Shown in pieces: positions 21,056-41,845 of a stretch of DNA of 64,000 nt (within the stretch, counting starts at the first letter, position 1; every line of letters starts with the position of its first letter). A program made the position numbers and the translations under genes. The notes beneath the pieces were generated by a model. That model saw only the letters and a list, made by a program, of their open reading frames with translations. It was not told the DNA's origin and did not search any database. Source of the stretch: Phycisphaeraceae bacterium (GTDB lineage Bacteria > Planctomycetota > Phycisphaerae > Phycisphaerales > Phycisphaeraceae); the NCBI GenBank assembly GCA_002686995.1, contig NYZC01000352.1:1-64000 (forward strand), read 5' to 3'.

Positions 21056-21928
21056 TTACCCGAGCCATTGGTAGAGTTCGGGGTCGTTCATCGGTCTGGA
21101 CCAGTCGATGCGCAGGATCCGGTCGGCGCAGGGAATCTCGATCACGCTCTGTTGTGCGAAGTCGTCGTCGACGTCGTTGCGACGCGTTCTGAGGGGACCG
21201 GCTGCCGCCTTGAACGCGTCGAGCCGGGTGCTGGCCGGTTCGAGGCCGTGATCGCCGCCTTCGTACCAGGTGGCGGTGACCGGGGTGCCGAGGGATTCGA
21301 GCTTCCGTGCCATGGCGCGACCGTGCTCGTCGCACGGCACGATTTCGTCGGCCGTGCCGTGGTCGATGTGCACGGGGCAGCGGATGCGATCGGCCATGGC
21401 CAGAGCGTCGCGCGCCGCCAGCTCGAAATCGGCGAACGTCCGATCGGCCCAGACCTGGTACGTCGGGGCGAGAAAGACGATCGGGCAGGCGGCGTAGAGC
21501 AGGGCGAACGTGCTCGGGGCGAAGATGCCGCTCAGCAGGCCGATGTGCCCGCCCTGGCTGCTGCCGTAATGGAACATCCGGCGCCGGTCCGCCATCGGAT
21601 AGAGCGACAGGGCCTTGCGCAGGCCGTTGAGCACGTCGAAAACCTGGTGAAAGCTGGCGTCGTAAGGCCGGTCGAAGCCGTCGCCGCGGGCGGGGTCGAA
21701 GGCAAAGCCGCTCTGGCGGTACTCGACACCGACGCAGACGACGTCGAGCACGTCGGGGGCGTATTCCATGATGTTCTGCACGCGCAAGCGGCTGCCGCCC
21801 CACCCGTGCGTACAGAGCAGGACGCCGGTATCGGGTGTGACGCGGTCGGGTGCCGTGACGCCGGCGGTCAGACGGGTCGGGTTGTCAGGGTAGTCGCAGG
21901 TCTCGTAGATGATGTCGAAGGATTGCAT
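21056..21928 (-). CDS. alpha/beta hydrolase (prolyl-oligopeptidase/dienelactone hydrolase-like)
   Basis: MQSFDIIYETCDYPDN...; nucleophile elbow YGSSQGGHIG, VHIDHGTADEIVP, GGDHGLEP. The 896-aa track ORF runs on upstream in a shadow frame. Confidence 0.8.
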   Translation of the reverse strand: MQSFDIIYETCDYPDNPTRLTAGVTAPDRVTPDTGVLLCTHGWGGSRLRVQNIMEYAPDVLDVVCVGVEYRQSGFAFDPARGDGFDRPYDASFHQVFDVLNGLRKALSLYPMADRRRMFHYGSSQGGHIGLLSGIFAPSTFALLYAACPIVFLAPTYQVWADRTFADFELAARDALAMADRIRCPVHIDHGTADEIVPCDEHGRAMARKLESLGTPVTATWYEGGDHGLEPASTRLDAFKAAAGPLRTRRNDVDDDFAQQSVIEIPCADRILRIDWSRPMNDPELYQWLG

Positions 21929-21933
21929 CGCGA

Positions 21934-23922
21934 TCAAAACGCCAACTGGACTGCGCTCTTGCTCATCAGCACCAGCCCGAAGCTTAGCATCGTCATCAGC
22001 CCCATGCCCGCGGCGAATCCGGCGGCGAACACGATTCGGTAGCTCGACCAGTGCTCGCCGAATCTCTTGCGGAGGATGAAACGGCCAATGATGGCCCCAA
22101 GAAACATCGGCACGATCGCGTGGGGCGCCGACTGGTCGAGTCCGCGCACCACGCCGTAGACGAGAAAGACGGGCAGGCCGAAATAGCTGAGGATCCCAAA
22201 GATCGCGAGGGCCAGGATCCCGCCGGCGGCGACGTATTGCCACACGAAGGCTTCGCGGAAGGGGTTCGGCGCATCGCCCGGCAGGGTCGCCGAGTAGAGC
22301 AGGCCCTGCTGGAATGCCTTCAGCTCCCAGAACTCGTTGGCATAAGGAAACAGGGCGCTCGGGACATCGGCGATCGACCAGATGAACTGCGCGAAGAGCA
22401 CGGTGCCGAGCGCCATGATCGGGAAGATCAGAAGCTCGGCCTTGATCAGCGAGGTGAAACGCGTGCCGGTCAGCTCCGTGGTCCGGAAGAACTGCACCTG
22501 CTGGGCGTAGTTGTGCAGCGGGATCGGCGCGAACCAGATCGCGGCGCCCTTGTAGCCGGACAGGATGAACGTCGCCTCGCGCACGAAGGGAATGGTGACC
22601 TGCTGGCCGACGATGCCTTCCATGCGCGCCGAGACGTAACTGATGAAGGGCGTGTAAACGAACCCGTAGAAGAGCAGCAGCCACAACGGAAACGGCCGGC
22701 CACCCTCGGGAATCGGAATCGCGACGTTGACGAGCCAGTACGTCAGTCCGATGTAGGTGGCCGTCGAAGCGAGATAGATCATGATGCCGATCCAGATCGC
22801 GAAGTCGCCTCGGCCGGCCGGCGGACGCGCGAGCGATTTCCACCCTTCGGCGTCGGTGCTGCGCGCGGCGCGGCGCCGCTTGAGCAGGCCGCGCGCGATC
22901 TGCAGCAGGCCGATCAGCGCCACCGCGAAGGACAGGCCGAGCCCGAAGCTGAAGTAGAAGTCCATCGTGTTGGCCTGGATCGTTCGGATGCCGCCGAGCC
23001 CGGGCTCCCAGCTCGGAAGCAGGCCCGTGTGGAACAGGACGGGATTGACGATCACCGTAAACAGCAGCCCGATCAGCGCGCCGACCATCGCCCAGTACGG
23101 CAGCACCATGCCGAGCACCATGAACGAGAGATCGAGGCTGATCATCATGGGCATCGTCGGCAGCAGGTGCTCGCTGTACGGCGTCAGGTCGACGAACGGA
23201 AGGGGGATGATCTGCAGTCCGCGCGTGAAGACGGCGCTGGTCACGTTCGGGATGCCCAGGTAGATGAGTCCGAACGCGGCGCCCGCGACGCCGCCGATGC
23301 TGAAGACGCGCCACTGCCAGCTGTCGCGCTCGTTCACCGCGTCGGCCAGGGCCGTCATGCCCATCGCGCCGACGGGCGCCATCGGAAACGGCAGCTTTTC
23401 CACGTCGCTCGTCAGGCGGAACATCACGTAGCCGAGGCCGAAGTGGTCGAGTCGCGACACGGCCAGGGTGAGGATCGTCAGGAGGATGGGGACGAGCCAC
23501 GCGCGCATGAAGAAGCTGCGGTGTCCCAGCACGTCCGGATCGCCCGGCGCGAACCATTCGGGGATGTACTCCGTGACGCCGAGTTTCCGCATCTCCTCGC
23601 TCTGCACGAGGAACTGGTTCCAGAGCAGGCCTCCGCCGCTGTGAATGACGGCGCCGCACATGTAGAAGAGCACGAAGACCTCGGGCCGCTTCAGCTTCGC
23701 CATGGCGCGCCGCGCGACCTCCACGTAGAGGATCACGGTCACCCACTGGGCGGCGGAACCCATCTCGACGCCCGCGACGAGGTGCATGTAGAGCTGCGCC
23801 GGCGTCATGAGCAGGCCGACGAACAGGGCCATCGCCGCCGTGCCCCAGTGCACGCCGTCCTCGAAGCGGTCCGGCCGCTTCATGAGGTCGCGAAACTCTC
23901 GGAATTCACTGTCTTCAACCAT
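21934..23922 (-). CDS. multi-TM membrane protein, DUF6785/DUF6784-like (OPT-like 'peptide transporter')
   Basis: 662 aa, many TM helices; LGYVMFRLTSDVEKLPFPMAPVGAMGMTALADA; paralogue of 28447..30504. Confidence 0.7.
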   Translation of the reverse strand: MVEDSEFREFRDLMKRPDRFEDGVHWGTAAMALFVGLLMTPAQLYMHLVAGVEMGSAAQWVTVILYVEVARRAMAKLKRPEVFVLFYMCGAVIHSGGGLLWNQFLVQSEEMRKLGVTEYIPEWFAPGDPDVLGHRSFFMRAWLVPILLTILTLAVSRLDHFGLGYVMFRLTSDVEKLPFPMAPVGAMGMTALADAVNERDSWQWRVFSIGGVAGAAFGLIYLGIPNVTSAVFTRGLQIIPLPFVDLTPYSEHLLPTMPMMISLDLSFMVLGMVLPYWAMVGALIGLLFTVIVNPVLFHTGLLPSWEPGLGGIRTIQANTMDFYFSFGLGLSFAVALIGLLQIARGLLKRRRAARSTDAEGWKSLARPPAGRGDFAIWIGIMIYLASTATYIGLTYWLVNVAIPIPEGGRPFPLWLLLFYGFVYTPFISYVSARMEGIVGQQVTIPFVREATFILSGYKGAAIWFAPIPLHNYAQQVQFFRTTELTGTRFTSLIKAELLIFPIMALGTVLFAQFIWSIADVPSALFPYANEFWELKAFQQGLLYSATLPGDAPNPFREAFVWQYVAAGGILALAIFGILSYFGLPVFLVYGVVRGLDQSAPHAIVPMFLGAIIGRFILRKRFGEHWSSYRIVFAAGFAAGMGLMTMLSFGLVLMSKSAVQLAF

Positions 23923-26900
23923 GCGCCGTGCCCTGACGTGCCGACGTTCCGACCTTCCGGCCTTCCGACTCTTTCACTGCTTCGACATACTCGGTCACTT
24001 TCTCCGGGCTCAGCTGGCGCCAGCCCAGCATCTGGCGCCGCAGCCTTCCGACGAAGAAGCGGTTCAGCTTGTGCCAGGCGGGGACCTGCCCGCTTTGTCG
24101 GCGCAGCTCGAAGAAGAAGCTGACGACACCGGGCTCCTTCGCGGGCGCCGCGGTGATGCGGATCTCCTGTCGCACGCCCAGGTCGTAGGGCGACAGCCAC
24201 ACGGTGCATTGCACCTCGCTGGCGCCGCTGACGACCTGGTCCGTCGCGAAGTTGCCGATCGTCCGCTCCCGGTGCGATTCGAAATACTCCGCGACGAATC
24301 GGAGCAGGCCCGGCGCGGTGCGATCCGTGGCGGAGAACGGAAGCTTGTCGGCGATGATGTCGTCGACGGGTGACGGCAGGCGCCAGGTTCGATCATGGCT
24401 CGGGGCCGCGAGACGACCGGCCAGGAACGCGGGGACGAGCGCCGAGACGGCAACGACCGCGAGCACGAGCAGCATCACGAGGATCGCGTGCGAGCCCGAG
24501 TAGTTCAAGGTGAGGCCGCCGAGCCAGCCCAGGCGGGAAAGTACGGTGGCCGCGCCCTGGCCGGCGACGTAACCGAAGATCGTGCCCATCAACCCGTAGG
24601 TGATTGCCTCGGCCAGGAAGAGAAACGCCACGTGTAGTGGCGCGAGACCGAGGCTCGTGTAGATATAGATGTCGCGCCGGCGCTCGGTGATCGAGCTGAG
24701 CATTGAGTTGAAGATGATCAGGCCGCCGATGGCCAGAGGAATCAGGACGCGCCCGGGGACGCGCGGCAGGAGCGGCATGATGACCACGGCCCGAACGCCG
24801 TGCTCATCATGGTACGAGACGGGGTAGGCGAACCGCTCAGCCAGCGCCTGCGCGGTCCGCCGGGCTGCGGCGCCATCCTGTCTCGAGATCGCGATGCTCC
24901 GCAGCGTCGCTCCGCTCAGCGTGCGAACCATGCCGGCGGAAAGGATCGCGACGTCGGTGCTGCGCAGGTGCGGAAGGCTCGCGCCGGCGGCGGTTTCGCC
25001 GGCGATGCTCTGCTCCAGTTGCAGGCGGACGTCCGCGGACATGACCATCCGCCGCACCTCGCGCGGCATGCGCCAGTAGGCAAGCGGCAGGATGGATCTT
25101 CCGTCCGCATCCCGCGCCGCCTCGTCGACCGGACCCGGCTCGAAGACACCGATCAGTTCGAGATCGTGACCCGCGATCACGATGCGCTCGCCGGGCTCGA
25201 CGTCGAGCGCTTCGGCGACGGCGGCGGGAAGATAGCCGCCGCCCTCGCCCATCCGCTCCCAGTCAGGCAACCGCTCCGGGAGATCGCTGACGTCCGCTTC
25301 GGCGGGATCGAGGCCCAGGGCCGCCTTGAGGCTGACTTGCGCTCCCGTCGCGTGATTGCGAACGATCACGGTCCATTGACCGTCCCACGGGTTGACCCAC
25401 CACCAGCGGGTGGCGACGGCTACGGGCGACGTCTCGCGCTCCGCCATCGCCTGAACGTGATCGAGCATTTCAACCGGCAGGGCGCGACCGGCGGGCGGGC
25501 GGATCAGCGTGCCGGCTCCGGCAGCATGGGATGACGCGGCAACGACGTATTCCCTGTCGCCGGCGTACTTCCTCGTGGATACGAAGCACATCAGGACGAA
25601 CGTGATGAGGACGATGCTGATGCCGTTCAGGGCGGTTCGAAGGCGCCGCTTTCGCATGTGGGCGATGCCAAGTCGAAACGCGGTGTTGAGGACGCCGAGG
25701 CGCGAGGTCTCCGCGGACACCGCGCCGGTCTGCTCGCGGGCGCGGGCCAGCGTGCCCTCGAACCGCGAGAAGATCAACGAGAGCACGAGGCCGCTCATCA
25801 GGACCAGCGCGAAGGCCATGATCACGGTCAGCGGCTGCGCGGTGATGCGAAAGGCCGGGTGGAAGCTCCAGAGCAGGGCCGTCATGACGAGGAAGATGCC
25901 GGCGCCGGCGAGGATCTGGTGGTGAACGCGAGGCGAGGCGAAGAGCAGCCGCTCCATTGCGTATGAGAACGGCACCAGCACGATCAGCAGGAACACGGCG
26001 CCGCGCACGACGTCGTCGGCCGTGCTCCGGACGGCCTGGTACACGCGCACCTCGTTGCTCAGAGGCGCCTGGTAGTCGACTGACGAACCGGAATCCGTAT
26101 GGCGAGCCTCGAGCAGGCTGCCCGTCCGCGCGTGCAGGGCGTCGATCGCGTGACTGTGAATACCTGCCGCGGCGTAGTGCTCGAGGCGGCGACCGTCGAG
26201 CCGGTACAGGTCCCGGGCCGCCTGCTCGGTCGACGGCGCGGCCATCGCATCGTCGATGCGAAACCCCTGGCCGGTCGCCGTGCGGCCGGTTGCGGCGCCG
26301 GGATCCGGGAAGTTCGCCAGAACGAGGCGGTTGCGCACCAGTCCGGCTCGAAGGACGAGCTGCCACCTTGCATCGAGCGGCATCTGAGCCGCGAGCATAC
26401 CTTCCCAGTGAAAGATGTTGCTGCGGCGAAACGGCTGCCCGCGTCGCGCGTCCAGCAGGGAGACGCGCAGATTCGCCAGCAACCTCGGATCGCGCAGCTC
26501 GAAGAGGGCCAGCTCCCGGCAGGGAAAGACCTGGGCGCGCAGCGGCGTGCGATTGACGGTGCGCACGTTCACGTTGAGCCTGGCGTCCGAGTCGCCGCCG
26601 CTCAGGTTGATCGCGCTGACGATGCGCCCGTCCTCCGCGATCGAGAACGACTGAGGCACGTATCGCTTGAATCGGCTGCGCACAGGCCAGAAGTCGAACT
26701 CGAACTGACCGTCATCGGCGGTGAAGGTGAACTGCTCCCGACGCATCCCGGGACTGCGCGGCAGGCCGCGAAACGGCTCGAGCGGCATGGTGCCCACCTG
26801 GCCGTCGTGCCACATGCCGTCGATCAGCGTGGTGAGGTAGCCCGCCATCGGGACGCGCGCCGTGGCCGCGCCGGCGGCGCGATCGACGACGAAGCCGCGC

Positions 26901-28450
26901 AACTGCGTCCAGCGGTGCGCGCCGCCGGTAGGTGTGACGAATCCGGATGCCTGCGCAAGGGCGTCGACCATCGCGGCGGTGGCCTCGATCTGCGGTCCGA
27001 GACGATCGAAATCCAGGCGGTCCGCGGAATCTGACGGTGTATCGACGCGACGCCGTGGAGCCGCGAGCGTCGTCCAGGTGATCGCCTGCGTGCCGAAGCT
27101 CTCCGCGGGCGAGGTGAGCGTGGCGAACTCCCCGATGTTGAACGAACGCGGGCTGTCCGAAGCGCTGAGCGGTCCGAGGTTCACCGCGCGGGCGAGCGGC
27201 GGGGGCCAGATCGCCCGGCGCGCGTCCTCGTCCAGGCCGCTGAGCCACCGGGTGAACGAGCGCGCGTTGTTGAACTCGTCCCAGACCTGGTAGCCGCAGT
27301 ACCTCATCGGACCGACGGCGTGTCCGGCGTCCGAGAGATCGATCCCGAGCACGAAGCCGAGCGGCAGACCGTCTTCGGGATCGAGGCCGAGGGCGGCGGA
27401 CAGCTCGCGGCGCAGACGGTCGCGCGCGGTCGCTTCGGCCGGGGCTTCTACGCGATCTGCCACGCCTGCGTCGCCGGGACGTACGGTGAGCGCCGCCAGC
27501 ATCTGTCGAATGCCGACCTGGTTGTGACCGAACGCGTCGATGAAGCAGAAGAGCAGCGGTCGGGAGGGCGGTCGGTCCACGAATCGGCGCAGCAGGTGAA
27601 GCGCGAGTGCCGTGTCGATGGCGGCGTCCGCACCGGGAGCCAGCTCGGGGACGAGGCTCATCGCGTCGTACGTCACGGCGATAGCGATGGAGGGCTGGGG
27701 CGGCGCATCGTTCAGGGGAGCGATCAGCGCGTAAAGATTCGTTGCCGTAGCGTTCGACCACGCGCCGTGTGCGCGCAGCGTGCCGCGTCGGGTCGTTCTT
27801 CGAAGTTGGCCGGCAGGAACGCCGTCCGGGACGAAGAACCTGGGGGCGTGGATCGAAAGCGTAAGCCGGTGGCTCCTGAGATGGTCGAACGCGAGTCGCT
27901 CGTGGCCGAGCAGGATCACCGCGGCGGCACCGGCGTGAAAGGCGCGGGTCCACCGTCGGCCGCCGGTCGCTTCCATGACGGCGATGCGACCGCGGAGATT
28001 CGTCCCGATCTCCGCGTGGCGGCCTTCACCGATGTAGGTCAGATCGCCGGTGATCCCTTCCGCGGGTGTCGTGTTGAGCCGGGCTCCTGCGGGCCAGAGG
28101 GGATGGACACGGTGCGTATCGTCGCCCTCGAGTGCGAGGGTGGCGCGTTCGCCGTCGCGTGTGGTTCGCGGGACGACGACGTCGAAGTCGTGCCGCCAGA
28201 GTCGTACGTTCGGCAGGTTTTCGAGACGGGCCTGCAGATCATGCAAGGCCTGGTCGTGTCCCTCGCTTCCGACGACGCGCGACGGGTACGAAGCGAATCG
28301 CTGCGCGTCGCGGCGGACATCGTCGACGATGCCGGCGCCGGCAACGAGGGGGAACGTGGCGAGCAGGGCGGCGAAGATCCCCGCAACTCCCTCTTGGAAA
28401 GGGGGGAGTCGCATGGCTCTGCGCATCAGCAGTCTCAGTCCGCGCATCAT
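23915..28450 (-). CDS. FtsX/MacB-type permease fused to an N-terminal PA/M28-peptidase-like domain (~1511 aa)
   Basis: N-term VVGSEGHDQALHDLQARL..., AVTYDAMSLVPELAPGADAAIDTALALHLLRRF..RPLLFCFIDAFGHNQVGIRQ aligns to M28; middle RKRRLRTALNGISIVLITFVLM; C-term FtsX VLIPLAIGGLIIFNSMLSSITERRRDIYIYTSLGLAPLHVAFLFLAEA. Start taken at ATG 28450. Confidence 0.75.
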   Translation of the reverse strand: MMRGLRLLMRRAMRLPPFQEGVAGIFAALLATFPLVAGAGIVDDVRRDAQRFASYPSRVVGSEGHDQALHDLQARLENLPNVRLWRHDFDVVVPRTTRDGERATLALEGDDTHRVHPLWPAGARLNTTPAEGITGDLTYIGEGRHAEIGTNLRGRIAVMEATGGRRWTRAFHAGAAAVILLGHERLAFDHLRSHRLTLSIHAPRFFVPDGVPAGQLRRTTRRGTLRAHGAWSNATATNLYALIAPLNDAPPQPSIAIAVTYDAMSLVPELAPGADAAIDTALALHLLRRFVDRPPSRPLLFCFIDAFGHNQVGIRQMLAALTVRPGDAGVADRVEAPAEATARDRLRRELSAALGLDPEDGLPLGFVLGIDLSDAGHAVGPMRYCGYQVWDEFNNARSFTRWLSGLDEDARRAIWPPPLARAVNLGPLSASDSPRSFNIGEFATLTSPAESFGTQAITWTTLAAPRRRVDTPSDSADRLDFDRLGPQIEATAAMVDALAQASGFVTPTGGAHRWTQLRGFVVDRAAGAATARVPMAGYLTTLIDGMWHDGQVGTMPLEPFRGLPRSPGMRREQFTFTADDGQFEFDFWPVRSRFKRYVPQSFSIAEDGRIVSAINLSGGDSDARLNVNVRTVNRTPLRAQVFPCRELALFELRDPRLLANLRVSLLDARRGQPFRRSNIFHWEGMLAAQMPLDARWQLVLRAGLVRNRLVLANFPDPGAATGRTATGQGFRIDDAMAAPSTEQAARDLYRLDGRRLEHYAAAGIHSHAIDALHARTGSLLEARHTDSGSSVDYQAPLSNEVRVYQAVRSTADDVVRGAVFLLIVLVPFSYAMERLLFASPRVHHQILAGAGIFLVMTALLWSFHPAFRITAQPLTVIMAFALVLMSGLVLSLIFSRFEGTLARAREQTGAVSAETSRLGVLNTAFRLGIAHMRKRRLRTALNGISIVLITFVLMCFVSTRKYAGDREYVVAASSHAAGAGTLIRPPAGRALPVEMLDHVQAMAERETSPVAVATRWWWVNPWDGQWTVIVRNHATGAQVSLKAALGLDPAEADVSDLPERLPDWERMGEGGGYLPAAVAEALDVEPGERIVIAGHDLELIGVFEPGPVDEAARDADGRSILPLAYWRMPREVRRMVMSADVRLQLEQSIAGETAAGASLPHLRSTDVAILSAGMVRTLSGATLRSIAISRQDGAAARRTAQALAERFAYPVSYHDEHGVRAVVIMPLLPRVPGRVLIPLAIGGLIIFNSMLSSITERRRDIYIYTSLGLAPLHVAFLFLAEAITYGLMGTIFGYVAGQGAATVLSRLGWLGGLTLNYSGSHAILVMLLVLAVVAVSALVPAFLAGRLAAPSHDRTWRLPSPVDDIIADKLPFSATDRTAPGLLRFVAEYFESHRERTIGNFATDQVVSGASEVQCTVWLSPYDLGVRQEIRITAAPAKEPGVVSFFFELRRQSGQVPAWHKLNRFFVGRLRRQMLGWRQLSPEKVTEYVEAVKESEGRKVGTSARQGTAHG

Positions 28451-30504
28451 CCCCTCCCCACCGGGACGTAATCGAGGCCCATCAAGACGCGCACCGTCGG
28501 CTCGAGCGTCCAGAATGCGATCGCGAGGATCTCGCCGACGATCAGGCCGAGAAAGCTCGCCCTGGCGCGCTCGAACAGGGCGGCGCCGCCGTACCGCAGC
28601 ACGAGCATCTTGATCAGCCATCCAAGAAAGAGGCTCGGCCAGGCGCGGTTGGCGAACCAGGTGTCGATCATGACCAGGCCGATCGGGTGCAGCGGCCATG
28701 CGGGGGAACGCAGGCACAGCCAGTAGAGAATGCCGGCGACAATCGCGCCGGCGCCGAGGTGTCCGAAACCGAGATCGAGCCGGTCCGGGTGATTGAACCG
28801 GTTGACGTCGAAGGGAAGCCCGGCCCCGCCGGATTGCTCGTGCTCGGTGACGCGCAAAAGGCCTTCGTTCGCGGCAAGCAGGGCGCGCGTGTGCCACCAG
28901 TTCAGCGGCACCACGCTCGCGTCGGCCGATCCGGCGTGGTGGTACGCCACGTGGAGCGTCGCCGCGCCGCCGATGATCAGGCCCGCGACCAGGACGACGA
29001 GCAGGATCCACACGCGTCGCGACGAACGCGGCCGGTCCCCGCCGCTTTCGTCGTCGAGACCGATTGCGTGCGTCGCCATGGTGGCGGCGCTCATCTGCGC
29101 GCCGCTGTAGACCACCATGCCGATGACATAGGAGAAGAAGAGCGAGGCGGGCGAAAGCAGCCAGAGCATCTTCGCGTGGGCGAGGTGCGCGCCGATGATG
29201 CTGACCAGCGAGCTTTGCTCCAGGCCGATGAACGGAATGCCGGTCTCCGCGACGATCCGGGTGACGACGAGGCACACCATGAACGCCGACAGGGTGAACA
29301 CCGCGGCCCACCAGGGCTGGACGCGGCCGATCCAGACGAGCCAGGCGAACAGCCCGGCGGCGCCGATCAGCAGCATCCAGCCGCCGCGTCGATCGGCCCG
29401 GCTCGGTTCGTCAGATGGATTCGAGAAAAGCTGCTGCGCCACGGCGACCCAGCGCGATCGGCCCAGCCATAGAACGACGATCATCACCGCGAACGTCGCA
29501 CCGGAGCGGTAGTCAGCGATGACCTGCGGTGCGAAGTCCGGGACGTACGCACGCCCGAGCATCACGTAGCCGCCTGCGATGACGACGGTCGCCCAGATCG
29601 AGAAGGTCACGCGGGTGGGCACGAAGAACGCAATGCCGACGAGCAGGAAGAAGAGCCTTCCCTGCGGGATGTGCCAGGGCATGTGGCTCAGCGGCTCGGC
29701 GTTGAACAGCGGCAGCAGGTTCCAGCTGAACGGAATCGCCGGGACGCGCTCGGGGCTGTAGAGGTGAAAACCTCGAAGCAGGTGCACCAGCAGGACCGCC
29801 GCCGCCGCGATCCAGAACGAGGCGCTTCGAAAGACCGGCGCGACGAGACGGCCTTCGTCCGGATCCTGGATGAGCGACTGCTGCACCGTGAGCAGCGGAA
29901 ACGCGAGAAGCTCGTTGCGGCGCCATTGCGGCCAGACGACCGTGGCCAGGCCGATCATCATCAGCCACAGGCCGACGTAGAGCAGCCCCCACGACCACAA
30001 CGGCCCCTCGATCCATGCCTGCCAGGGAATCGGGCGCCCCTCGGGCAGCTCGCCGATAAAGTCGTTGACCACCGTGACCGGTTGACCGCCGTCGATCCGG
30101 TCCGGAAACAGCGAAGCACGAATGCCGGCCTCGCTGTATGCTTCCGCGAGCCGGGCGTTCCCGCTGATCTCGCGCGGCACGTTCGCGATCGCGAACGGCG
30201 TCGTGCGCAGCGTGCCGGGGCCGGGCAGCACGCTGGCCATGAGCCACATCGACAGGACCAGGGCCAGTCGTGATCGATCGAGCGCCCAGCCGGGACGCCA
30301 TCGGCGCAGCAGCGGATTGACGACGACGACCATGAAGAGGATGAGCACGAGCGCCGTCGCCGGAAGATAGCTCGTGTCGAGCAGGCCCGTGAAGATGACG
30401 TGGTCGGTGTACGGCGACGAGATCCAGATCAGCGTCGAGCCGACCAGGCCGAGCAGCAGGGCGGCGATCGACGCGCGTCGTGGCTCGGACCGGGCAGACG
30501 TCAT
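28447..30504 (-). CDS. multi-TM membrane protein, DUF6785/DUF6784-like
   Basis: 685 aa: MTSARSEPRRASIAALLLGLVGSTLIWISSPYTDHVIFTGLLDTSYLP...; overlaps the next gene by ATGA. Confidence 0.7.
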   Translation of the reverse strand: MTSARSEPRRASIAALLLGLVGSTLIWISSPYTDHVIFTGLLDTSYLPATALVLILFMVVVVNPLLRRWRPGWALDRSRLALVLSMWLMASVLPGPGTLRTTPFAIANVPREISGNARLAEAYSEAGIRASLFPDRIDGGQPVTVVNDFIGELPEGRPIPWQAWIEGPLWSWGLLYVGLWLMMIGLATVVWPQWRRNELLAFPLLTVQQSLIQDPDEGRLVAPVFRSASFWIAAAAVLLVHLLRGFHLYSPERVPAIPFSWNLLPLFNAEPLSHMPWHIPQGRLFFLLVGIAFFVPTRVTFSIWATVVIAGGYVMLGRAYVPDFAPQVIADYRSGATFAVMIVVLWLGRSRWVAVAQQLFSNPSDEPSRADRRGGWMLLIGAAGLFAWLVWIGRVQPWWAAVFTLSAFMVCLVVTRIVAETGIPFIGLEQSSLVSIIGAHLAHAKMLWLLSPASLFFSYVIGMVVYSGAQMSAATMATHAIGLDDESGGDRPRSSRRVWILLVVLVAGLIIGGAATLHVAYHHAGSADASVVPLNWWHTRALLAANEGLLRVTEHEQSGGAGLPFDVNRFNHPDRLDLGFGHLGAGAIVAGILYWLCLRSPAWPLHPIGLVMIDTWFANRAWPSLFLGWLIKMLVLRYGGAALFERARASFLGLIVGEILAIAFWTLEPTVRVLMGLDYVPVGRG

Positions 30505-30705: not shown

Positions 30706-31938
30706 GTGATCCAAGTGCCGAAAACCATTCTGCTGCTGGGCGCGTTCGATACCAAGGGGCTGGAGTACGCATTCGTTCGCGATCGGCTTACGGACGCAGG
30801 CTGCGGGGTCATCTGCGTCAATACCGGCGTGCTCGACGAACCGGTGAGCATGAAGGCTGATGTCAGTGCCGACGAGGTCGCACGCGCGGGAGGTTCGACG
30901 ATCGACGCGCTGCGTGGCGGCAACGATCGTGGGCAGGCGATGAAGGTGATGGCTGCGGGGGCCGCGGTGGTCGCGCGGCGTCTTCACGACGAAGGACGAA
31001 TTGACGGCATTTTCGGAATGGGCGGCACGGGCGGATCGAGCGTCGTGACCGCCTCGATGCGCGCGCTGCCGGTGGGCGTGCCCAAGGTTTGCGTATCGAC
31101 GGCGGCCTCGGGTGACACGAGCGCTTACGTGGGGACGAAGGACGTCGTGCTGATCCCCTCGATCGTCGACGTGGCGGGCATCAATCGCGTCAGTCGGATC
31201 ATCTTCACGCGGGCAGCCGGGGCCATCGCCGGCATGGTGGAAGCAGAACCGGAGAAGGTCGGCGACGACAAGCCGGTGATCGTCGCGTCGATGTTCGGCA
31301 ACACGACCGAGTGCGTCGATGCCTGTCGCGAAGCGCTGACGGCGAAGGGATACGAAGTGCTCGTGTTTCACGCTACCGGTGCGGGCGGGCGTACGATGGA
31401 GTCACTGATCGACGAGGGGCTCGTCAACGGGTGCCTCGACATCACGACGACCGAGTGGGCCGACCAGGTTTGCGGCGGCGTGTTCGACGCGGGACCGGAC
31501 CGCCTGCGCGCCGCGGGTCGCGCGGGCATCCCCCACCTGATCGTGCCCGGCTGCGTGGACATGGCCAACTTCGGAGGGCCCGAGACGGTGCCGCAGCACT
31601 ACCGGGACACCGGGCGGAAGTTCTACGAATGGAATCCGTCGGTCACGCTGATGCGCACCGATGCCGACGAGAATCGGCGCATGGGGGAGGCATTCGCGGC
31701 GGCCGCAAACGATGCGAAGGGGCCCGTGGCCGTGCTGATTCCGATGAAGGGCGTGTCGATTCTCGACGGCGACGGCGAGATGTTCTGTGACCGCGACGCG
31801 GACCAGGCGATGTTCGATGCCATCAGGTCGAATCTCCGCGACGGCATTCCGGTCGAAGAGCTTGATGCCAACATCAACGACGCGACGTTCAGCGACAAGG
31901 CGGTCGCGATGATGCTGGAATTGATGACCCGGGTCTGA
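30706..31938 (+). CDS. Tm-1-like ATP-binding domain protein (UPF0261)
   Basis: [71 protein letters not shown] start (30706 or 30715). Confidence 0.9.
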
Positions 31939-32006
31939 AAGATTCCCGGCGCCCGATCGCGCGCCGCTGCCAGTACAATCCCGCTTCTGATCGAAGGGAC
32001 TCTGCC

Positions 32007-32834
32007 ATGGCATTCACCCGACAGCAGGTGCTCGATCGTCTTCGCCGGCGCATCGAAGAAGGCGTCCCGATCGTCGGCGGCGGCGCGGGATGCGGCCTCA
32101 GCGCCAAGTGCGAAGAGACGGGCGGCATCGACCTGATCATCATCTACAATTCCGGTCGATTCAGGATGAACGGCCGCGGCTCCCTGGCCGGCTGCATGCC
32201 CTACGGGGACGCCAACGGCATCGTGATGGAGATGGCCGGCGAGGTGCTGACGATCGTCGACGACACGCCGGTGCTCGCCGGCGTATGCGGAACCGATCCG
32301 ACGCGCCTGATGGATCGTTTCCTTGCGGATGTCGTGAACGCCGGATTCTCCGGAATCCAGAACTTTCCGACGGTGGGGCTGTGCGACGGCATGTTCCGCG
32401 CCAACCTCGAGGAGACCGGCATGGGGTACGGGCTCGAGGTCGAGATGATCCGCAAGGCCCGAGAGATGGACATCTTTACGACGCCATACGCATTCAACGT
32501 CGACGAAGCCCGTCAGATGGCCGAGGCCGGCGCCGACGTCGTCGTCGCGCACATGGGGCTGACGACCAAGGGGGCCATCGGCGCGCACACCTCGAAGACG
32601 CTCGACCAGTGCGTCGAGGACGTCCAGGCGATCGGCGCGGCGGCGAAAGAGGTCAACCCGGATGTGATTATGCTGTGCCACGGCGGACCGATCTCGATGC
32701 CGGACGACGCGGCGTACGTGCTGCAGCGCGTCGAGGACGTCCACGGGTTCTACGGCGCGTCGAGCATGGAGCGCCTGCCCACCGAAGTCGCGATCACGAA
32801 GCAGATCGAGCAGTTCAAGGCGATTCGGCGCTGA
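32007..32834 (+). CDS. TIM-barrel / phosphoenolpyruvate hydrolase-like protein (COG5564-type)
   Basis: [66 protein letters not shown]. Confidence 0.88.
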
Positions 32835-32861
32835 GCGCGAATCGAAACTCACGAGTCACGA

Positions 32862-33941
32862 ATGCCTTATCCCTACAAGTGCATCCTCGTCGGAACCGGT
32901 GGCATGGGCGGGTCGTGGTGCCGCAGCGCGCTGCCTTCGAACATGACGGACGGACTCGTCGAACCGGTCGCCGCGGTCGATATCGTGCCGGAGCACCTCG
33001 ACAACGCGATCGACGGCCTCGGTCTGAGCCGTGATCGCTGCTACACCGACGCGCGGAAGGCCTTCGCCGAGAACGAGGCGGACTTCGCGATCGTCGTCGT
33101 CCCACCCGCCGCGCACGAGTCGATCGTCGACGTCGCGCTCGAGCACGACTGCCATATCCTTTCCGAGAAGCCGATCGCCGACAGTATGGAGGCCTCCGTC
33201 CGCATCGCCAGGAAGGTGGCGGCGGCTGAACGGAAGATGGGCGTCACGATGTCGCACCGTTTCCGCCAGGACATCACGACGCTCCGCACGATCGTTCACG
33301 AGCAAACGTATGGGCGCCTCGACTACCTCGTTTGCCGCTTTACGTGTGCGAACCGCAACCGAGGCGAATGGGGCCGGTTCCGGTACGACATACCCGACGC
33401 GCTGCTCGTCGAGGGTTCGGTCCACCATCTCGATCTGCTCTGTGACATTGCGTGCGGGGGAGACGGCTCACTGTGCGACACGATCTACGGTCGAACGTGG
33501 AACACGCCGTGGAGCGATTTCAACGGTGACGCGCAGGCCCTGGTCACGATGACGATGCAGAACGGCCGCCAGGTCATGTACGAAGGCGCCAAGACCAACG
33601 CCGTGGGGATCAATTGCTGGAGTCAGGAGTACATCCGCGCCGAGTGCGAGCACGCGACGCTGATCATGAACCACGGCGGCATCGAGGCGCTGCCCTACGG
33701 CCGCGGCAACGCGCAGCGCGGCGAAGGCGAGCCGGTTGCCCTGATCGACCAGCCGAAATGGAGCAACACCTGGCTTTGCGAGAAGTTTCTGCACTGGCTT
33801 GATGGCGGCCCGGCGATGGAGACCAACGTACAGGACAACCTGCAGTCGGTCGCCCTGATCTTCGCGGCGGCCGAGAGCAGCCGTACGGGACAGCCGGTGG
33901 ACGTGCAGGCATTTATCGATCGATTCCGCACGCAATCATGA
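32862..33941 (+). CDS. Gfo/Idh/MocA family oxidoreductase
   Basis: YKCILVGTGGMGGSWCRSAL, HILSEKPIADSMEASVRIARK. Confidence 0.88.
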   Translation: MPYPYKCILVGTGGMGGSWCRSALPSNMTDGLVEPVAAVDIVPEHLDNAIDGLGLSRDRCYTDARKAFAENEADFAIVVVPPAAHESIVDVALEHDCHILSEKPIADSMEASVRIARKVAAAERKMGVTMSHRFRQDITTLRTIVHEQTYGRLDYLVCRFTCANRNRGEWGRFRYDIPDALLVEGSVHHLDLLCDIACGGDGSLCDTIYGRTWNTPWSDFNGDAQALVTMTMQNGRQVMYEGAKTNAVGINCWSQEYIRAECEHATLIMNHGGIEALPYGRGNAQRGEGEPVALIDQPKWSNTWLCEKFLHWLDGGPAMETNVQDNLQSVALIFAAAESSRTGQPVDVQAFIDRFRTQS

Positions 33942-35962: not shown

Positions 35963-38900
35963 TCAGGCCGCACTTCGTCGCTGCGCCTCGACCAGTGACG
36001 CCGCGAGAGCGTCGGCAAGATGGTGGGCCCAGCGTTCCTGGAACATCTGGTTGTGTGAGCCCGGGACGCTTCGCACGTCGACGCCCCCGCGCGCCAGGGC
36101 GCTCCAGCCCATGTCGGGCTCGCCCGGGCAGGTGATCGACCGGATGTGCGAGCGAAAGACCGTGACGCTTCCGTTGGTGGGAATGGGTTCGTAGCTGCGC
36201 ACCGCCCGGAAATGAGTCTCGAGAAATCGGCGCCGCTGTTCCGGGAGGTCGGTGACGCCGAAGACCGCGCGGATGTCGGGCAGAACCTTGTCCGCATGCG
36301 GGTCGTCCCGTGACACCTTCATGCCGTCGAGCCAGTGGCGCATCCTGCCGCGCGCCCGGACGAGGGTCGTCAGGAAATCCGTCGTGAGCAGCTCGTGTCG
36401 GATCCATCGCGGTAGATTGGCGGCGATGCGCGCCAACCGGACCGGGTGCGTGAGACGACGATGGGGCGTGCCCGGTGCCGGCGCATCGAAGAACGCGAGG
36501 TAGGCAACGTCCTCTCCGGCGTCGCGAAGCTGACGGGCCATCTCCCACGTGATCGCGCCGCCCGACGAGTATCCGCCCAGGTAATAGGGACCGGAAGGGG
36601 TGATCTCGCGGATCGCGTCGAGATACCGTCGCGCCATCGTGGCCACGTCGGTGTCCGGGGCCTCGTCGGCGCGCAGGCCGCGGGCCTGGATGCCGTAAAA
36701 GGGCTGGTCCGGACTCAGCCGGCGGGCGATCGGACGGAGGAACATCACCTCGCCGCCGATGCCGTGGACGCAGAAGAAGGGCGGGCGACGCCCTTCCGGC
36801 TGCAGTGAGACGAGGGGCGACGAGACGATGTTGGGCCGGTACTCGATGTGCTCGGCCAGGGATGCGATGGTCGGTGTTTCAAACAGCAGCGACAGCGGAA
36901 GCTCGTGTCCGTATGTCCTCTGCACCCACGCGACGAACCTGACGGCAAGCAGCGAGTGGCCGCCCAGCTCGAAGAAGTTGTCCTCGGGGCCGATCGCATC
37001 GACGCCGAGGAGCTCCGACCATGCGGCGGCAAGCTGCTGCTCCATGACGCTGCGCGGCAGCTCGACGGTCGCCGTCTTCGACCTGGTCTCGTGTCGGGCA
37101 GGCACGAGGGCGTCACGATCGAGCTTGCCGTTCGCGGTCAGCGGAAACCGGTCCATCACGGTGATGCCCGTCGGAATCATGAATGCCGGAAGTGCGCGCG
37201 CCAGGTGGTTCTGTAGCTCGTCGGGGTCGACGGCACGTTTCCTGGTCGTGACGACGAACGCGAAGAGTCCTGGCTCGCCGGACGGCTGGTCGCGGACGAC
37301 GACAGCGGCCTCGCGCACGTCGGGATGATGGCGCAACACGGTTTCGATCTCCCCCGGCTCGATGCGATGGCCGCGGATCTTGACCTGCTCGTCAGTGCGG
37401 CCGTGATACTCGATGAGGCCGTCCTCGCGGAACCGGCCGATGTCGCCGGTGCGATAGAGTCGCTCAGCTGTATCCGGGGCTTCAATGAACCGTTCGGCAG
37501 TGAGCTCGGGGCGATTCAGGTAGCCGCGGGCCAGGCCGTCGCCGCCGATGCATATTTCACCCGGAATGCCGATCGGCACGGAGCGCAGCTTCGAATCGAG
37601 AATACGCACCGTCGTGTTTCCGATCGGCCGACCGATCGGAACCGGCGTCGTCCCGTCCTGTCCGTCGTGCGGAATCTCGAAGGTTGTTGCGAACGTCGTG
37701 CTCTCGGTCGGTCCGTATCCGTTGACCAGCCGCGTCCCGGGAAGGTGGTCGAGGGCGGCGCGAACGTGGGCGGGTGAGAGTGCTTCGCCTCCGGTCAGGA
37801 CGTGCTCGACGGTTTCGAGGGCGAGCGGGTCATGATCGACGACGGTGTTGAACAGCGACGCGGTGAGCCAGAGACACGTCACGCCGAAGTCGCGCACGGC
37901 GTCGGCCAGGTTGCGGACCGTCGGCACATCGTGCGGAAACAGGACGCAGCAGCCGCCGTTGAGCAGCGGTCCCCAGATCTCGAACGTCGACGCGTCGAAC
38001 GTGACGGGCGCCATCTGCAGCGTGACCTGCCCCGCCTCCAGCGGTACGTAGTCGACGCCGCGCACGAGCCGAACCACGCCGCGATGGGGCACCATCACTC
38101 CTTTCGGCTCACCGGTCGAGCCGGAGGTGTACATCACGCAGGCCAGGTGCTCCGGCCCGGGACGATCGGGCGTGGACGCCGTTCGGCACCTGTCGTCCGG
38201 CTCTTCGGCCGCGTCGACGCGAACGACACGGGCGCCGAGCCCGCAGAGCACTTCTGCGTGTCGTTCGGTGGTCAGGACGATGGGGGCCGAGGCGTCACGA
38301 AGCATGAACTCGAGCCGCTGACGGGGCCAGGCGGCTTCCATCGGGACGTACGCGCCTCCGGCCTTGAGCACGCCGAGCATCGCGACGATCAGCTCAGGCG
38401 AACGATCAAGACAAATCGCAACCGGGACGTCCGGCCCGACGCCCCACCCGGTAAGCGTGCGCGCGAGTCGATCGGCGCGGTCGTTCAGATCACCGTAGGT
38501 GATGCGATCTTCATCGTGAACCAGAGCGATTGCGCCCGGCGTGGATCGCGCCTGTGTCTCGAAGAGCGCGTGAATCGTTTCGTCGCGCGGGTAGTGGGTG
38601 ACGGTGTCGTTGAGATCGGCCGTGCGGCGACGCTCTGTCTCGTCCATCAGCGACGCGTCAGAAACGGACACGTCCGGATTCGTCGTGACCGACTCGATGA
38701 CATTGCCGAAATGCCTGCTCAGGCGTTCGATGGTGCCCCGGTCGAAGATGTCCGTATTGTAGTCGAAGATGCACTCGAGGCCTTCATCGACCATGTGAAT
38801 CGTGATCGAGAGATCGAACTTGGCCGTGCGCACCGCGATGATGCCCGGGTTCGTCTCGATCTCGACGCCGGGGAACGTCGCGCCCCGGATCGGCGTGTTC

Positions 38901-41845
38901 TGGAGGCTGAGCACCACCTGCACGAGCGGCGCGTACCGCAGCGTTCTCTGGATCTTCAGGTGTTCGACGAGCTTGTCGAACGGGATGTCCTGGTGCGCGA
39001 ACGCGCTGACCGCCGTGTCCTGGACTCTTCGAAGCACCTCACGGTAGGAGGGATCGCCGCACAGACGGGTGCGTATCGGCAGCGTGTTCGCGAAGAATCC
39101 GATCACCTTCTCGAGATCGATGTGCTGGCGGTTGGCCACCGGTGATCCGACGACGAGATCCGTCTGCCCGGTGTAGCGGACGAGAAGCATCTTGAACGCC
39201 GCCATCAGCGCCGCGTAGAGCGTGACGTGCTCCTGGATCGCGATCGCCTCGAGCCGCTCGCGCACCTCGGGCGGGAGCATCATGACGTGGCGGTCGCCTT
39301 CGTTCGTCTGGACGTCCGGGCGCGGGCGGTCCGACGGCAGGGCGAGCAGGTCGGGCGCGCCGCCCAGCCGGTCGGCCCAGTAGTCGAGCAGGCGGTCGAG
39401 CGTCTCGCCCTTCAGGTGTTCCGCCTGCCAGGTGGCGAAGTCGACATACTGCAGGGACGGGTCGTCGAGTGTCGACGGCCGCTGTTCGCGCCGGGCGGCG
39501 TACAGCTCCGCCCATTCCCGCAGCAGGAGCCATGACGACCAGTAGTCCGAGATGATGTGGTGCATGACCAGGATCAGCTCGTGCCGGCCGTCGCCGGTGA
39601 TGAGCACCGTGAACCGCGTAAGCGGGCCGCGCTCCAGGTCGAAGGGCGTTCGCGCGATCCGGCTCTTCAGCCGTTCGGCCTGGACGGCACGGCGCGCAGG
39701 CACCAGGTGCCGGAGATCGAGCACTTGAATCTCGTGCTTCACTGCTTCGTGGACGACCTGGATCGGTTCGCCGTCGTGCTCGCGAAACGTCGTTCGCAGG
39801 GCGTCGTGGCGGCGGACGAGCGCGTCGAGTGCATGCTGCAGGTCGGGCAGGTCGAGTTCGCCGGTCAGGTGGAACGCCTTGGCGACGTTGTAGGTCGGCC
39901 TGTCGGGGGCAAGTCGATGGATGAACCAGAGCCGACGCTGGCCGACCGAAAGCGGCAACGGTCCGTCACGGTCCGCGCGCGGGATTCGAGGGCGGTCATC
40001 GCCGGTCCGACCGGCCAGGCGCGGGGCCAGTGCGGCGATGGTCGGCGCGTCGAACAGCTCGGGCAGCGTCAGTGGGACGGTCAGCCGGTCACGAACGCGC
40101 GATATGGCCAGCGTGGCGAGCAGCGAGTGTCCGCCGAGCTCGAAGAAGTCATCGTGAACGCCGACCCTGTCCAGGCCGAGCAGGTCGGCGTAGATCGAGG
40201 CGAGACATTGCTCCGTGTCGTCCCGTGGCGCGACGTATGAAGCGTCAAGGTCGGCGCGGCGGCGCTGCGGGGCCGGCAATGCCGCCTTGTCGAGCTTGCC
40301 GGCGGCGTTGAACGGCAGCGCGTCCAGGAAGACGAACGCCGTGGGAATCATGTGGTCCGCGAGGTCGCGCGACAGCGCCTGGCGAATCTCCAAGACCGCC
40401 GGTCGGGTGTCGGGGTCGGCGACAAGGTAGGCCGCGAGCGTGACGCCGCTGGCGTCCTTGTGCGCCACGACCGCCGCTTCGCGAATCGCGTCGATTCCGA
40501 GCAGCGTCTGCTCCACCTTGTCCATCTGGACCCGGTGTCCCCTGATCTTGACCTGGTTGTCGCGGCGTCCGGCCAGCTCGAGACAACCGTCGGGGCGCAG
40601 TCGCCCGACGTCGCCGGTCAGGTAGATTCGACGGTCATCGTCGTCCGAAACGGGCAGGAAGACCTTTGCGGACAATTCCGGCTGCTTCCAGTAGCCCAGC
40701 GCCAGGTACCGGCTTCTTACCGCGACCTCGCCGATTTCATGGTCGTGGCGCGGATGGCCCGCGTCGTCGAGAATCAGCACCTGCTTGTCCGGGACGGGGT
40801 ATCCGGCGGGCGCCGCGTCCGTGTCGAGCCGCGCGTCCATGTCGAACTCGGCAGAGCGGAAGATGCCGGCTTCGCTCGCACCGAGGCTGTTGCTCAGGAT
40901 GCATCCACGGTCGCAGTGTTTCTGAAACAGCCGGACGTCATGGGCCGTCAACGGCTCTCCGCCCAGGAACAGGCGACGCAGGAAGCCGGGCGGGTTGTCG
41001 GGCCCGAATCGGACGCACAGCTGGCGGAAGACGGTCGGGACCGTGTGCAGCAAGGTGACTCGATCGCGCTCGATCATTTCGGCCAGCCCGTCGATGCCTT
41101 CCTTCCTGACGTCGAGCATGCACACCCGGGCGCCGTAGAGCAGCGGGGAGAACAGGTCCTTGACTCCCGCACCGGCCGTGTAGGAGTAGAGCATGGCGAC
41201 GCGGTCCTCGGGGCCGAGGTCGGCGCGGCCGGCATGCATCATGACCAGGTGCATCAGGTTGCGATGCGAGTGCATCACGCCCTTGGGCGTTCCGGTGGTG
41301 CCGGAGGTGAAGATGACGTACGCGAGATCACCGGGCTGCGGCGAGGTCTCGGGATCCGCGCAGCGCATTTCGTCCTCGAGCCGGTCGAGGTTGACGATAC
41401 GCCCTGGATCCGGACAGATGCGCGCCGCGACGTCGGCGTGAGCGTCGTCGGTGACGAGGACGCGCGCGTCGGATTGAACGAAGATCTCCGAAAGCACGCG
41501 ATCGGGACCGGCTGGATCAAGCGGCACGTAGGCCATGCCGGTCTTGAGGACGCCGATCATCGCGACGGGCCGGCCCGCGTCGTGACCCAGCATCAGGGCC
41601 ACCGTCGCGTCTTCCCGGAGTGAACGGTCCAGGACCTGGTGAGCGACGCGATTGGCCTGTCGATTCAGCTCGTCGTAGGTGATCGTGTCGCCGCGAGCGT
41701 CACTGACCGCATGGCGATCGCCGAACTCGGCAACGACGGCGCGGAATCGATCGAGGAGCGAGGTCTCGAGATCATCGTGGGTGAGGCCCGTGAGCGATGC
41801 GCACGCGTCAGTCGTCGACAGGATCGGCCCGGGCTCAGCGCTCAA
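35963..41845 (-). CDS. non-ribosomal peptide synthetase, A-PCP-C-A-PCP-TE (1960 aa)
   Basis: A1 YVIFTSGTTGTPKGVMHSHRN; PCP1 DDFFELGGHSLLA (~40115-40153); C domain HHIISDY (~39541-39561); A2 CVMYTSGSTGEPKGVMVPHRG, NGYGPTEST; PCP2 DNFFELGGHSLLAV (~36935-36977); TE GGYSSGGAI (~36550-36582). Confidence 0.95.
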   Translation of the reverse strand: MSAEPGPILSTTDACASLTGLTHDDLETSLLDRFRAVVAEFGDRHAVSDARGDTITYDELNRQANRVAHQVLDRSLREDATVALMLGHDAGRPVAMIGVLKTGMAYVPLDPAGPDRVLSEIFVQSDARVLVTDDAHADVAARICPDPGRIVNLDRLEDEMRCADPETSPQPGDLAYVIFTSGTTGTPKGVMHSHRNLMHLVMMHAGRADLGPEDRVAMLYSYTAGAGVKDLFSPLLYGARVCMLDVRKEGIDGLAEMIERDRVTLLHTVPTVFRQLCVRFGPDNPPGFLRRLFLGGEPLTAHDVRLFQKHCDRGCILSNSLGASEAGIFRSAEFDMDARLDTDAAPAGYPVPDKQVLILDDAGHPRHDHEIGEVAVRSRYLALGYWKQPELSAKVFLPVSDDDDRRIYLTGDVGRLRPDGCLELAGRRDNQVKIRGHRVQMDKVEQTLLGIDAIREAAVVAHKDASGVTLAAYLVADPDTRPAVLEIRQALSRDLADHMIPTAFVFLDALPFNAAGKLDKAALPAPQRRRADLDASYVAPRDDTEQCLASIYADLLGLDRVGVHDDFFELGGHSLLATLAISRVRDRLTVPLTLPELFDAPTIAALAPRLAGRTGDDRPRIPRADRDGPLPLSVGQRRLWFIHRLAPDRPTYNVAKAFHLTGELDLPDLQHALDALVRRHDALRTTFREHDGEPIQVVHEAVKHEIQVLDLRHLVPARRAVQAERLKSRIARTPFDLERGPLTRFTVLITGDGRHELILVMHHIISDYWSSWLLLREWAELYAARREQRPSTLDDPSLQYVDFATWQAEHLKGETLDRLLDYWADRLGGAPDLLALPSDRPRPDVQTNEGDRHVMMLPPEVRERLEAIAIQEHVTLYAALMAAFKMLLVRYTGQTDLVVGSPVANRQHIDLEKVIGFFANTLPIRTRLCGDPSYREVLRRVQDTAVSAFAHQDIPFDKLVEHLKIQRTLRYAPLVQVVLSLQNTPIRGATFPGVEIETNPGIIAVRTAKFDLSITIHMVDEGLECIFDYNTDIFDRGTIERLSRHFGNVIESVTTNPDVSVSDASLMDETERRRTADLNDTVTHYPRDETIHALFETQARSTPGAIALVHDEDRITYGDLNDRADRLARTLTGWGVGPDVPVAICLDRSPELIVAMLGVLKAGGAYVPMEAAWPRQRLEFMLRDASAPIVLTTERHAEVLCGLGARVVRVDAAEEPDDRCRTASTPDRPGPEHLACVMYTSGSTGEPKGVMVPHRGVVRLVRGVDYVPLEAGQVTLQMAPVTFDASTFEIWGPLLNGGCCVLFPHDVPTVRNLADAVRDFGVTCLWLTASLFNTVVDHDPLALETVEHVLTGGEALSPAHVRAALDHLPGTRLVNGYGPTESTTFATTFEIPHDGQDGTTPVPIGRPIGNTTVRILDSKLRSVPIGIPGEICIGGDGLARGYLNRPELTAERFIEAPDTAERLYRTGDIGRFREDGLIEYHGRTDEQVKIRGHRIEPGEIETVLRHHPDVREAAVVVRDQPSGEPGLFAFVVTTRKRAVDPDELQNHLARALPAFMIPTGITVMDRFPLTANGKLDRDALVPARHETRSKTATVELPRSVMEQQLAAAWSELLGVDAIGPEDNFFELGGHSLLAVRFVAWVQRTYGHELPLSLLFETPTIASLAEHIEYRPNIVSSPLVSLQPEGRRPPFFCVHGIGGEVMFLRPIARRLSPDQPFYGIQARGLRADEAPDTDVATMARRYLDAIREITPSGPYYLGGYSSGGAITWEMARQLRDAGEDVAYLAFFDAPAPGTPHRRLTHPVRLARIAANLPRWIRHELLTTDFLTTLVRARGRMRHWLDGMKVSRDDPHADKVLPDIRAVFGVTDLPEQRRRFLETHFRAVRSYEPIPTNGSVTVFRSHIRSITCPGEPDMGWSALARGGVDVRSVPGSHNQMFQERWAHHLADALAASLVEAQRRSAA

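Follow-up and report, generated by a model that had tools for sequence, protein, structure and literature searches.

ATP-driven transmission of movement has been established for the type VII ABC systems LolCDE, MacB, and FtsEX. OPT proteins, in contrast to such ABC machines, are secondary transporters; barley YS1 (7wst/7wsr) is a member of the OPT/YSL group (PF03169). The M28 pseudo-peptidases, such as the transferrin receptor, nicastrin, and nicalin, combine the M28 fold with a lost active site in a membrane-anchored ectodomain. In YbbAP-TesA, a hydrolytic partner works with the type VII system, and ATP-driven movement is transmitted there as well (PMC12646458).

Here, we analyzed a four-gene operon in a 64-kb stretch of DNA (the window). 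We propose, with a probability of roughly 0.7, that this operon encodes module A, the membrane part of a bipartite type VII ABC-OPT system, the ATPase of which is encoded in trans. Like the type VII ABC systems, gene 2 and its homologues have an FtsX domain in which the coupling-helix motif ER..EI is present, and a LolD/MacB-like family is the candidate cognate ATPase. As in LolC/LolE, one large and one small FtsX subunit could plausibly form a heterodimer. Unlike in those systems, the gene 2 permease carries an additional N-terminal M28-fold ectodomain and about three additional hydrophobic segments. It is also linked to two OPT-fold transporters, a PqqD protein, and a protein of about 300 residues (U300), and the ATPase is often unlinked. 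YbbAP-TesA likewise joins a type VII permease to a hydrolase-fold periplasmic part, but here this domain is fused, has the M28 fold and appears catalytically degenerate, and OPT partners are present. The gene 2 domain shares the features of the M28 pseudo-peptidases listed above, but is fused to a bacterial FtsX permease. Gene 3 resembles the OPT/YSL transporters in its predicted fold and by a weak sequence match, and gene 1 through a remote profile kinship; unlike these transporters, which are encoded singly, both genes are linked to that of a type VII ABC permease. In the literature searched, neither DUF6785 nor DUF6784 was named in any paper, and no publication on the gene module was found. 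The module appears to be undescribed there, although its parts are of known kinds.

Results and Discussion

Layout of the Operon

The four minus-strand open reading frames are all intact (Table 1). They are joined by a 4-bp overlap (genes 1/2), an 8-bp overlap (genes 2/3), and a 5-bp gap (genes 3/4), so the overlapping four-gene operon described in an earlier note on this DNA was confirmed, coordinates included. The linkage of genes 1–3 is not due to chance, because their homologues co-occur in several bacterial phyla. No ABC ATPase, small FtsX, PqqD, or partner of about 300 residues was found in the 64-kb window and the remaining 9 kb of the contig.

Table 1. Genes of the operon and domains of the gene 2 product, with positions in the window.
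Feature	Position	Strand	Description
Gene 1 (P0001)	28447..30504	-	685 aa polytopic membrane protein; DUF6785 + DUF6784
Gene 2 (P0002)	23915..28450	-	1511 aa type VII permease, predicted pseudo-M28/FtsX
Gene 2 ectodomain, residues 41-838	25937..28330	-	Predicted PA-insert M28 aminopeptidase fold, then beta-rich and helical parts
Gene 2 second periplasmic domain, residues 983-1133	25052..25504	-	Weakly MacB_PCD-like (Pfam E 0.007, below cut-off)
Gene 2 FtsX C-terminal domain, residues 1239-1345	24416..24736	-	PF02687, 41.8 bits (cut-off 25.5)
Gene 2 candidate ATPase-coupling helix ERRRDIYIYTSLGL, residues 1256-1269	24644..24685	-	Motif alignment
Gene 3 (P0003)	21934..23922	-	662 aa OPT-family membrane protein (predicted fold)
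Gene 4 (P0004)	21056..21928	-	290 aa alpha/beta hydrolase; no apparent signal peptide

Gene 2 Encodes a Type VII Permease with an M28-Fold Ectodomain

The homologues of gene 2 in relatives are about 1500–2100 residues long. The AlphaFold2 model of the ectodomain had a mean pLDDT of 91.0 and a pTM of 0.91. Foldseek matched it best to the aminopeptidase 2ek8 (E 1.3e-22), followed by BSAP and the transferrin receptor. A profile built from 48 gene 2 ectodomains also found 2ek8 (E 1.2e-20), together with nicastrin, the transferrin receptor, and nicalin. Generic Pfam and NCBIfam scans reported no M28 domain in gene 2; it was revealed by the profile and fold searches.

Alignment to 2ek8 placed Thr260 at a ligand His, Phe307-Gly308 at the catalytic/ligand Glu-Glu pair, and Asp470 at the His of the HTPND motif. 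One ligand Asp is kept (Asp275). The His of the HxD motif was lost across about 70 homologues, with three exceptions (L044, L047, and L049). Judged from these alignments, the gene 2 ectodomains form a putative pseudo-peptidase family with a degenerate catalytic site, like the transferrin receptor. An active M28 metallopeptidase was not supported: the fold is present, but the full set of metal ligands and the catalytic Glu pair are not. Thus, of the FtsX-M28 fusion proposed earlier, the M28 fold stood by profile and predicted structure, while the catalytic residues are lost and Pfam gives no M28 match.

The FtsX domain was detected by Pfam with an E-value of 1.3e-10. Within it, ERRRDIYIYTSLGL aligns with the motif ER..EI...S.GL, which is conserved in about 70 homologues, whether or not an ATPase is encoded locally. 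Hydropathy, the one basis for these assignments, placed hydrophobic segments at residues 939-957, 1223-1254, 1274-1292, and 1322-1340. They form a four-TM core, and the weakly MacB_PCD-like periplasmic domain is located between TM1 and TM2. By its FtsX domain, motif, and hydropathy, gene 2 is a type VII ABC (MacB/Lol/FtsX) permease.

Genes 1 and 3 Point to the OPT Superfamily

The product of gene 1 has 13 hydrophobic segments and matched two Pfam models above their cut-offs, DUF6785 (E 3e-64, 217.7 bits) and DUF6784 (E 8e-23, 81 bits). Gene 3 matched neither model, and its assignment to DUF6785/DUF6784 was rejected; it has only a remote profile similarity to gene 1. Hence, the earlier description of two DUF6785/6784-like proteins applies to gene 1, and gene 3 is instead a marginal OPT match. 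Its score against Pfam OPT (PF03169; E 8e-6, 25.2 bits) fell 0.6 bit short of the cut-off of 25.8. The same model matched 14 of 38 gene 3 homologues at E-values up to 0.01, the best being 5.7e-12. For the AlphaFold2 model of gene 3 (pLDDT 80.8), Foldseek returned only two significant PDB matches, both of them barley YS1 (7wst/7wsr; E about 1e-9, TM about 0.6). By its predicted fold, gene 3 is an OPT-family protein resembling barley YS1.

The profile–profile comparison of genes 1 and 3 with larger alignments gave a probability of 90% (hhalign, E 1.5e-6) over the N-terminal ~200 columns; small alignments gave only 26%. Sequence searches of the PDB with the profiles of both genes returned no match. 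Support for the OPT fold of gene 3 therefore comes from Pfam and the predicted structure, and that for the kinship of gene 1 from hhalign only, which would make gene 1 a remote relative of gene 3 and the OPT superfamily. Two OPT-superfamily proteins, one of them much diverged, are thus probably encoded in the operon.

Genes 1–3 Belong to a Conserved Cassette

We surveyed 80 named genome loci plus planctomycete loci. In Planctomycetota, Lentisphaerota/Verrucomicrobiota/Kiritimatiellota, Omnitrophota, Sumerlaeota, and Desulfobacterota, genes 1–3 recurred with U300, PqqD (PF05402), a small FtsX permease, and either a single ABC ATPase or two. The linkage of two OPT-like membrane proteins with the FtsX-M28 fusion, noticed earlier in this one operon, is thus conserved in several phyla. 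The order is gene1-gene2-gene3-U300-PqqD-FtsX-ABC in the closest PVC/Omnitrophota/Sumerlaeota relatives of the window and FtsX-ABC-gene2-gene1-gene3-(secreted protein)-U300-PqqD in Desulfobacterota. Gene 3 was the most conserved component, and gene 2 adjoined gene 3 in 110 of 124 gene 3 loci (own genome left out). Among the 37 gene 3 loci with full flanks, mostly from Desulfobacterota (25/37), gene 2 was found in 35, the small FtsX in 33, and a cassette-type ATPase in 32. For all 55 planctomycete gene 3 loci, the counts were 52 with gene 2 and 28 with an ATPase nearby. An adjacent ATPase in 32 of the 37 full-flank relatives speaks largely against the ATPase-less machine suggested in the earlier note. 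In the nearest relative outside the genome (L065, gene 3 identity 74%), U300, PqqD, and FtsX directly follow gene 3; the full cassette is therefore probably ancestral. Two members of the U300 family were scanned without a Pfam match, and the alignment of the family (A9) shows four invariant Trp residues.

The Desulfobacterota loci (L096-L141) have glycosyltransferase 28-like and polysaccharide-deacetylase-like genes just upstream of the cassette and, after gene 3, a secreted protein of ~200 residues with no known family. HATPase, STAS, and cNMP-binding genes were seen near several of these loci. The upstream genes argue for a role in the envelope. The complex might thus serve export or biogenesis, extracting or flipping a glycoconjugate or lipid-linked product in a Lol/MacB-like manner, with the OPT-fold proteins as the membrane path. 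The secreted protein and the YbbAP-TesA precedent of a type VII system with a hydrolytic partner (PMC12646458) would fit as well. However, the deacetylase match falls just below the Pfam cut-off, no such neighbors were seen around the window, and the closest OPT relative with a solved structure is an importer, so that we regard this alternative as possible but doubtful. It concerns function only and is compatible with an ATPase in trans.

The Genome of the Window Holds Candidate ATPases

A second gene1-gene2-gene3 operon was found in the same genome, on contig C160. Its gene 3 is 80.4% identical to that of the window, and the two are sisters in the tree; genes 1 and 2 have identities of 45% and 50%, respectively. 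Convergent with the C160 operon are a 216-aa FtsX and then a 270-aa ATPase (C160:6287-7752), and an orphan ATPase of 257 aa is encoded at C160:39760-40533. The two ATPases are 77.4% identical sisters in the tree (support 100/95), nested among the full-cassette ATPases. Unrelated LolD/MacB-type ATPases of the same genome are encoded on C212, C9, and C82. Gene 3 and the ATPase diverged in parallel, which suggests co-duplication. The genome search for an orphan ATPase proposed in the earlier note was thus positive, and the trans-acting ATPase that it had considered is supported by these lineage-matched genes. The note was right that the window lacks an ATPase, but this does not extend to the system as a whole. 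The window and C160 have tetranucleotide profiles that correlate at 0.993, in keeping with one genome, and an assembly mix-up was judged unlikely.

Module B of the window's lineage was found in part: neither U300 nor PqqD of this lineage was detected in the genome, the assembly of which is 87.6% complete. The U300 and stand-alone PqqD genes present are confined to C163 and C131, where they accompany other cassette genes, and two further PqqD domains lie inside much longer reading frames. Module B may be incomplete in this genome or partly missing from the assembly. The local lack of module B genes, together with the low identities of genes 1 and 2, would also fit an operon that has become a paralogue of the C160 system in decay or with reduced function, no longer tied to an ATPase. 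We consider such decay improbable, as all frames are open, the start–stop overlaps are kept, gene 3 is still 80% identical to its C160 counterpart, and the second sister ATPase is retained.

The genome also contains at least 13 gene 2 paralogues and at least eight gene 1 + gene 2 pairs, counts taken from a genome search that may miss weak copies. The available flanks of these pairs (L038, L151, L152, and L154-L158; contigs C10, C104, C262, C353, C404, C288, C156, and C214) contain neither an ATPase nor a small FtsX nor gene 3. The combination of DUF6785 with pseudo-M28/FtsX is thus an expanded paralogue family within one genome. A transposase-like frame, recognized by eye, is located near the C10 pair (L038, 12116-13819).

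The ATPase at Separate Loci

Genes 2–3 stand alone in many planctomycetes, with the second module at another locus. An intact or near-intact U300-PqqD-FtsX-ABC set was located on a contig apart from module A in G370, G495, G532, G521, G471, G109, and G194; in the last three, the true distance is uncertain, as the contig bearing module A is short or stops nearby. G225 and G240 have similar extra copies of the set. In G518, FtsX-ABC lies at the start of a contig; G154, G266, G236, G174, and G206 have only tandem ABC genes; and in G530 the ABC gene alone has moved away. The very large contigs of G154 and G266 make the separation firm in these two genomes. Five loci (L240-L242, L270, and L276; family f54) show two tandem cassette-type ABC ATPases with no recognizable small FtsX beside them, and genes 2–3 elsewhere.

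In a sample of 392 genomes of the phylum (completeness floor 85), gene 2 was present in 36. A cassette-type ATPase (at least 331 bits) occurred in 32 of these 36 genomes and in none of the 356 without gene 2 (Fisher p 6e-43, counted on genomes with relatedness uncorrected). The count assumes that the same genomes came up in both of two identical sampling requests, which their shared handles support. The next ATPases scored 303 bits or less and came from genomes without gene 2 or were additional copies. Gene 2 was present with no ATPase detected in G159, G279, G364, and G374. Where the ATPase of the full cassette is not adjacent, it is usually elsewhere in the genome.

These data bear on an arrangement that works independently of an ATPase. 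Gene 2 would then be a static receptor or scaffold presenting the ligand, its FtsX fold a leftover, and the OPT proteins would run on an ion gradient. Secondary transport is the established mode of OPT proteins, no ATPase is encoded locally, and the eight gene 1 + gene 2 pairs of the same genome also lack a nearby ATPase, so that gene 2 might work without one. Against this, the coupling helix of gene 2 is conserved, gene 2 and the ATPase family co-occur near-perfectly, and the genome has kept two apparently co-duplicated ATPases that belong to the matching lineage. We consider the ATPase-independent arrangement unlikely, somewhat less so than decay of the operon.

Proposed Mechanism

In the preferred bipartite system, module B in its full form would consist of U300, the PqqD-like protein, the small FtsX permease, and either one LolD/MacB-type ATPase or a pair of them. 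For the window operon, the FtsX and ATPase at C160:6287-7752 and the orphan ATPase at C160:39760-40533 are the candidate trans partners. The FtsX half of gene 2 and the small FtsX would form a pair seated on an ATPase dimer, much as LolC/LolE or MacB do. Mechanotransmission powered by ATP would then move the pseudo-aminopeptidase ectodomain, as in the type VII systems. The ectodomain may bind a periplasmic ligand and either hand it over to the OPT-fold transporters of genes 1 and 3 or gate them. By analogy, the OPT kinship argues for the import of peptide-like or metal-chelate ligands, and the uptake role suggested in the earlier note may apply.

A more specific version is tentative. A type VII engine driven by ATP could energize or gate the OPT-fold pair through a dead-aminopeptidase receptor, with one or a few trans ATPase/FtsX engines serving many interchangeable receptor modules in the same cell. 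Such a machine might combine primary (ABC) with secondary (OPT) transport. The survey defines a recurrent gene module across several phyla, the isolated Desulfobacterota included, and a type VII ABC system with an ATPase often encoded away from its permease. Isolates carrying the full cassette include Desulfatibacillum alkenivorans, Halodesulfovibrio spirochaetisodalis, and Desulfopila sp. IMCC35008. It also gives DUF6785/6784 a genomic context and a probable OPT kinship.

Gene 4 and Neighboring Genes

Gene 4 matched Peptidase_S9 (E 1.1e-8) and Hydrolase_4 (E 1.5e-6) in Pfam. No homologue was found beside any cassette examined, and among 100 relatives we found one close homologue, on contig C217 of G017, the cassette of which is on contig C62. 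Gene 4 was therefore rejected as a core component. It is lineage-specific, and the alpha/beta hydrolase that had been counted as part of the machine is not conserved with it.

The divergent operon next to gene 1 (30706-33941, plus strand) encodes a UPF0261 protein, a PEP-hydrolase-like protein, and a GFO/IDH/MocA oxidoreductase, and is probably a separate catabolic unit. Farther along the window, a 1960-aa reading frame (35963-41845, minus strand) resembles a non-ribosomal peptide synthetase. Inspection of its translation by eye showed two adenylation modules and a terminal thioesterase.
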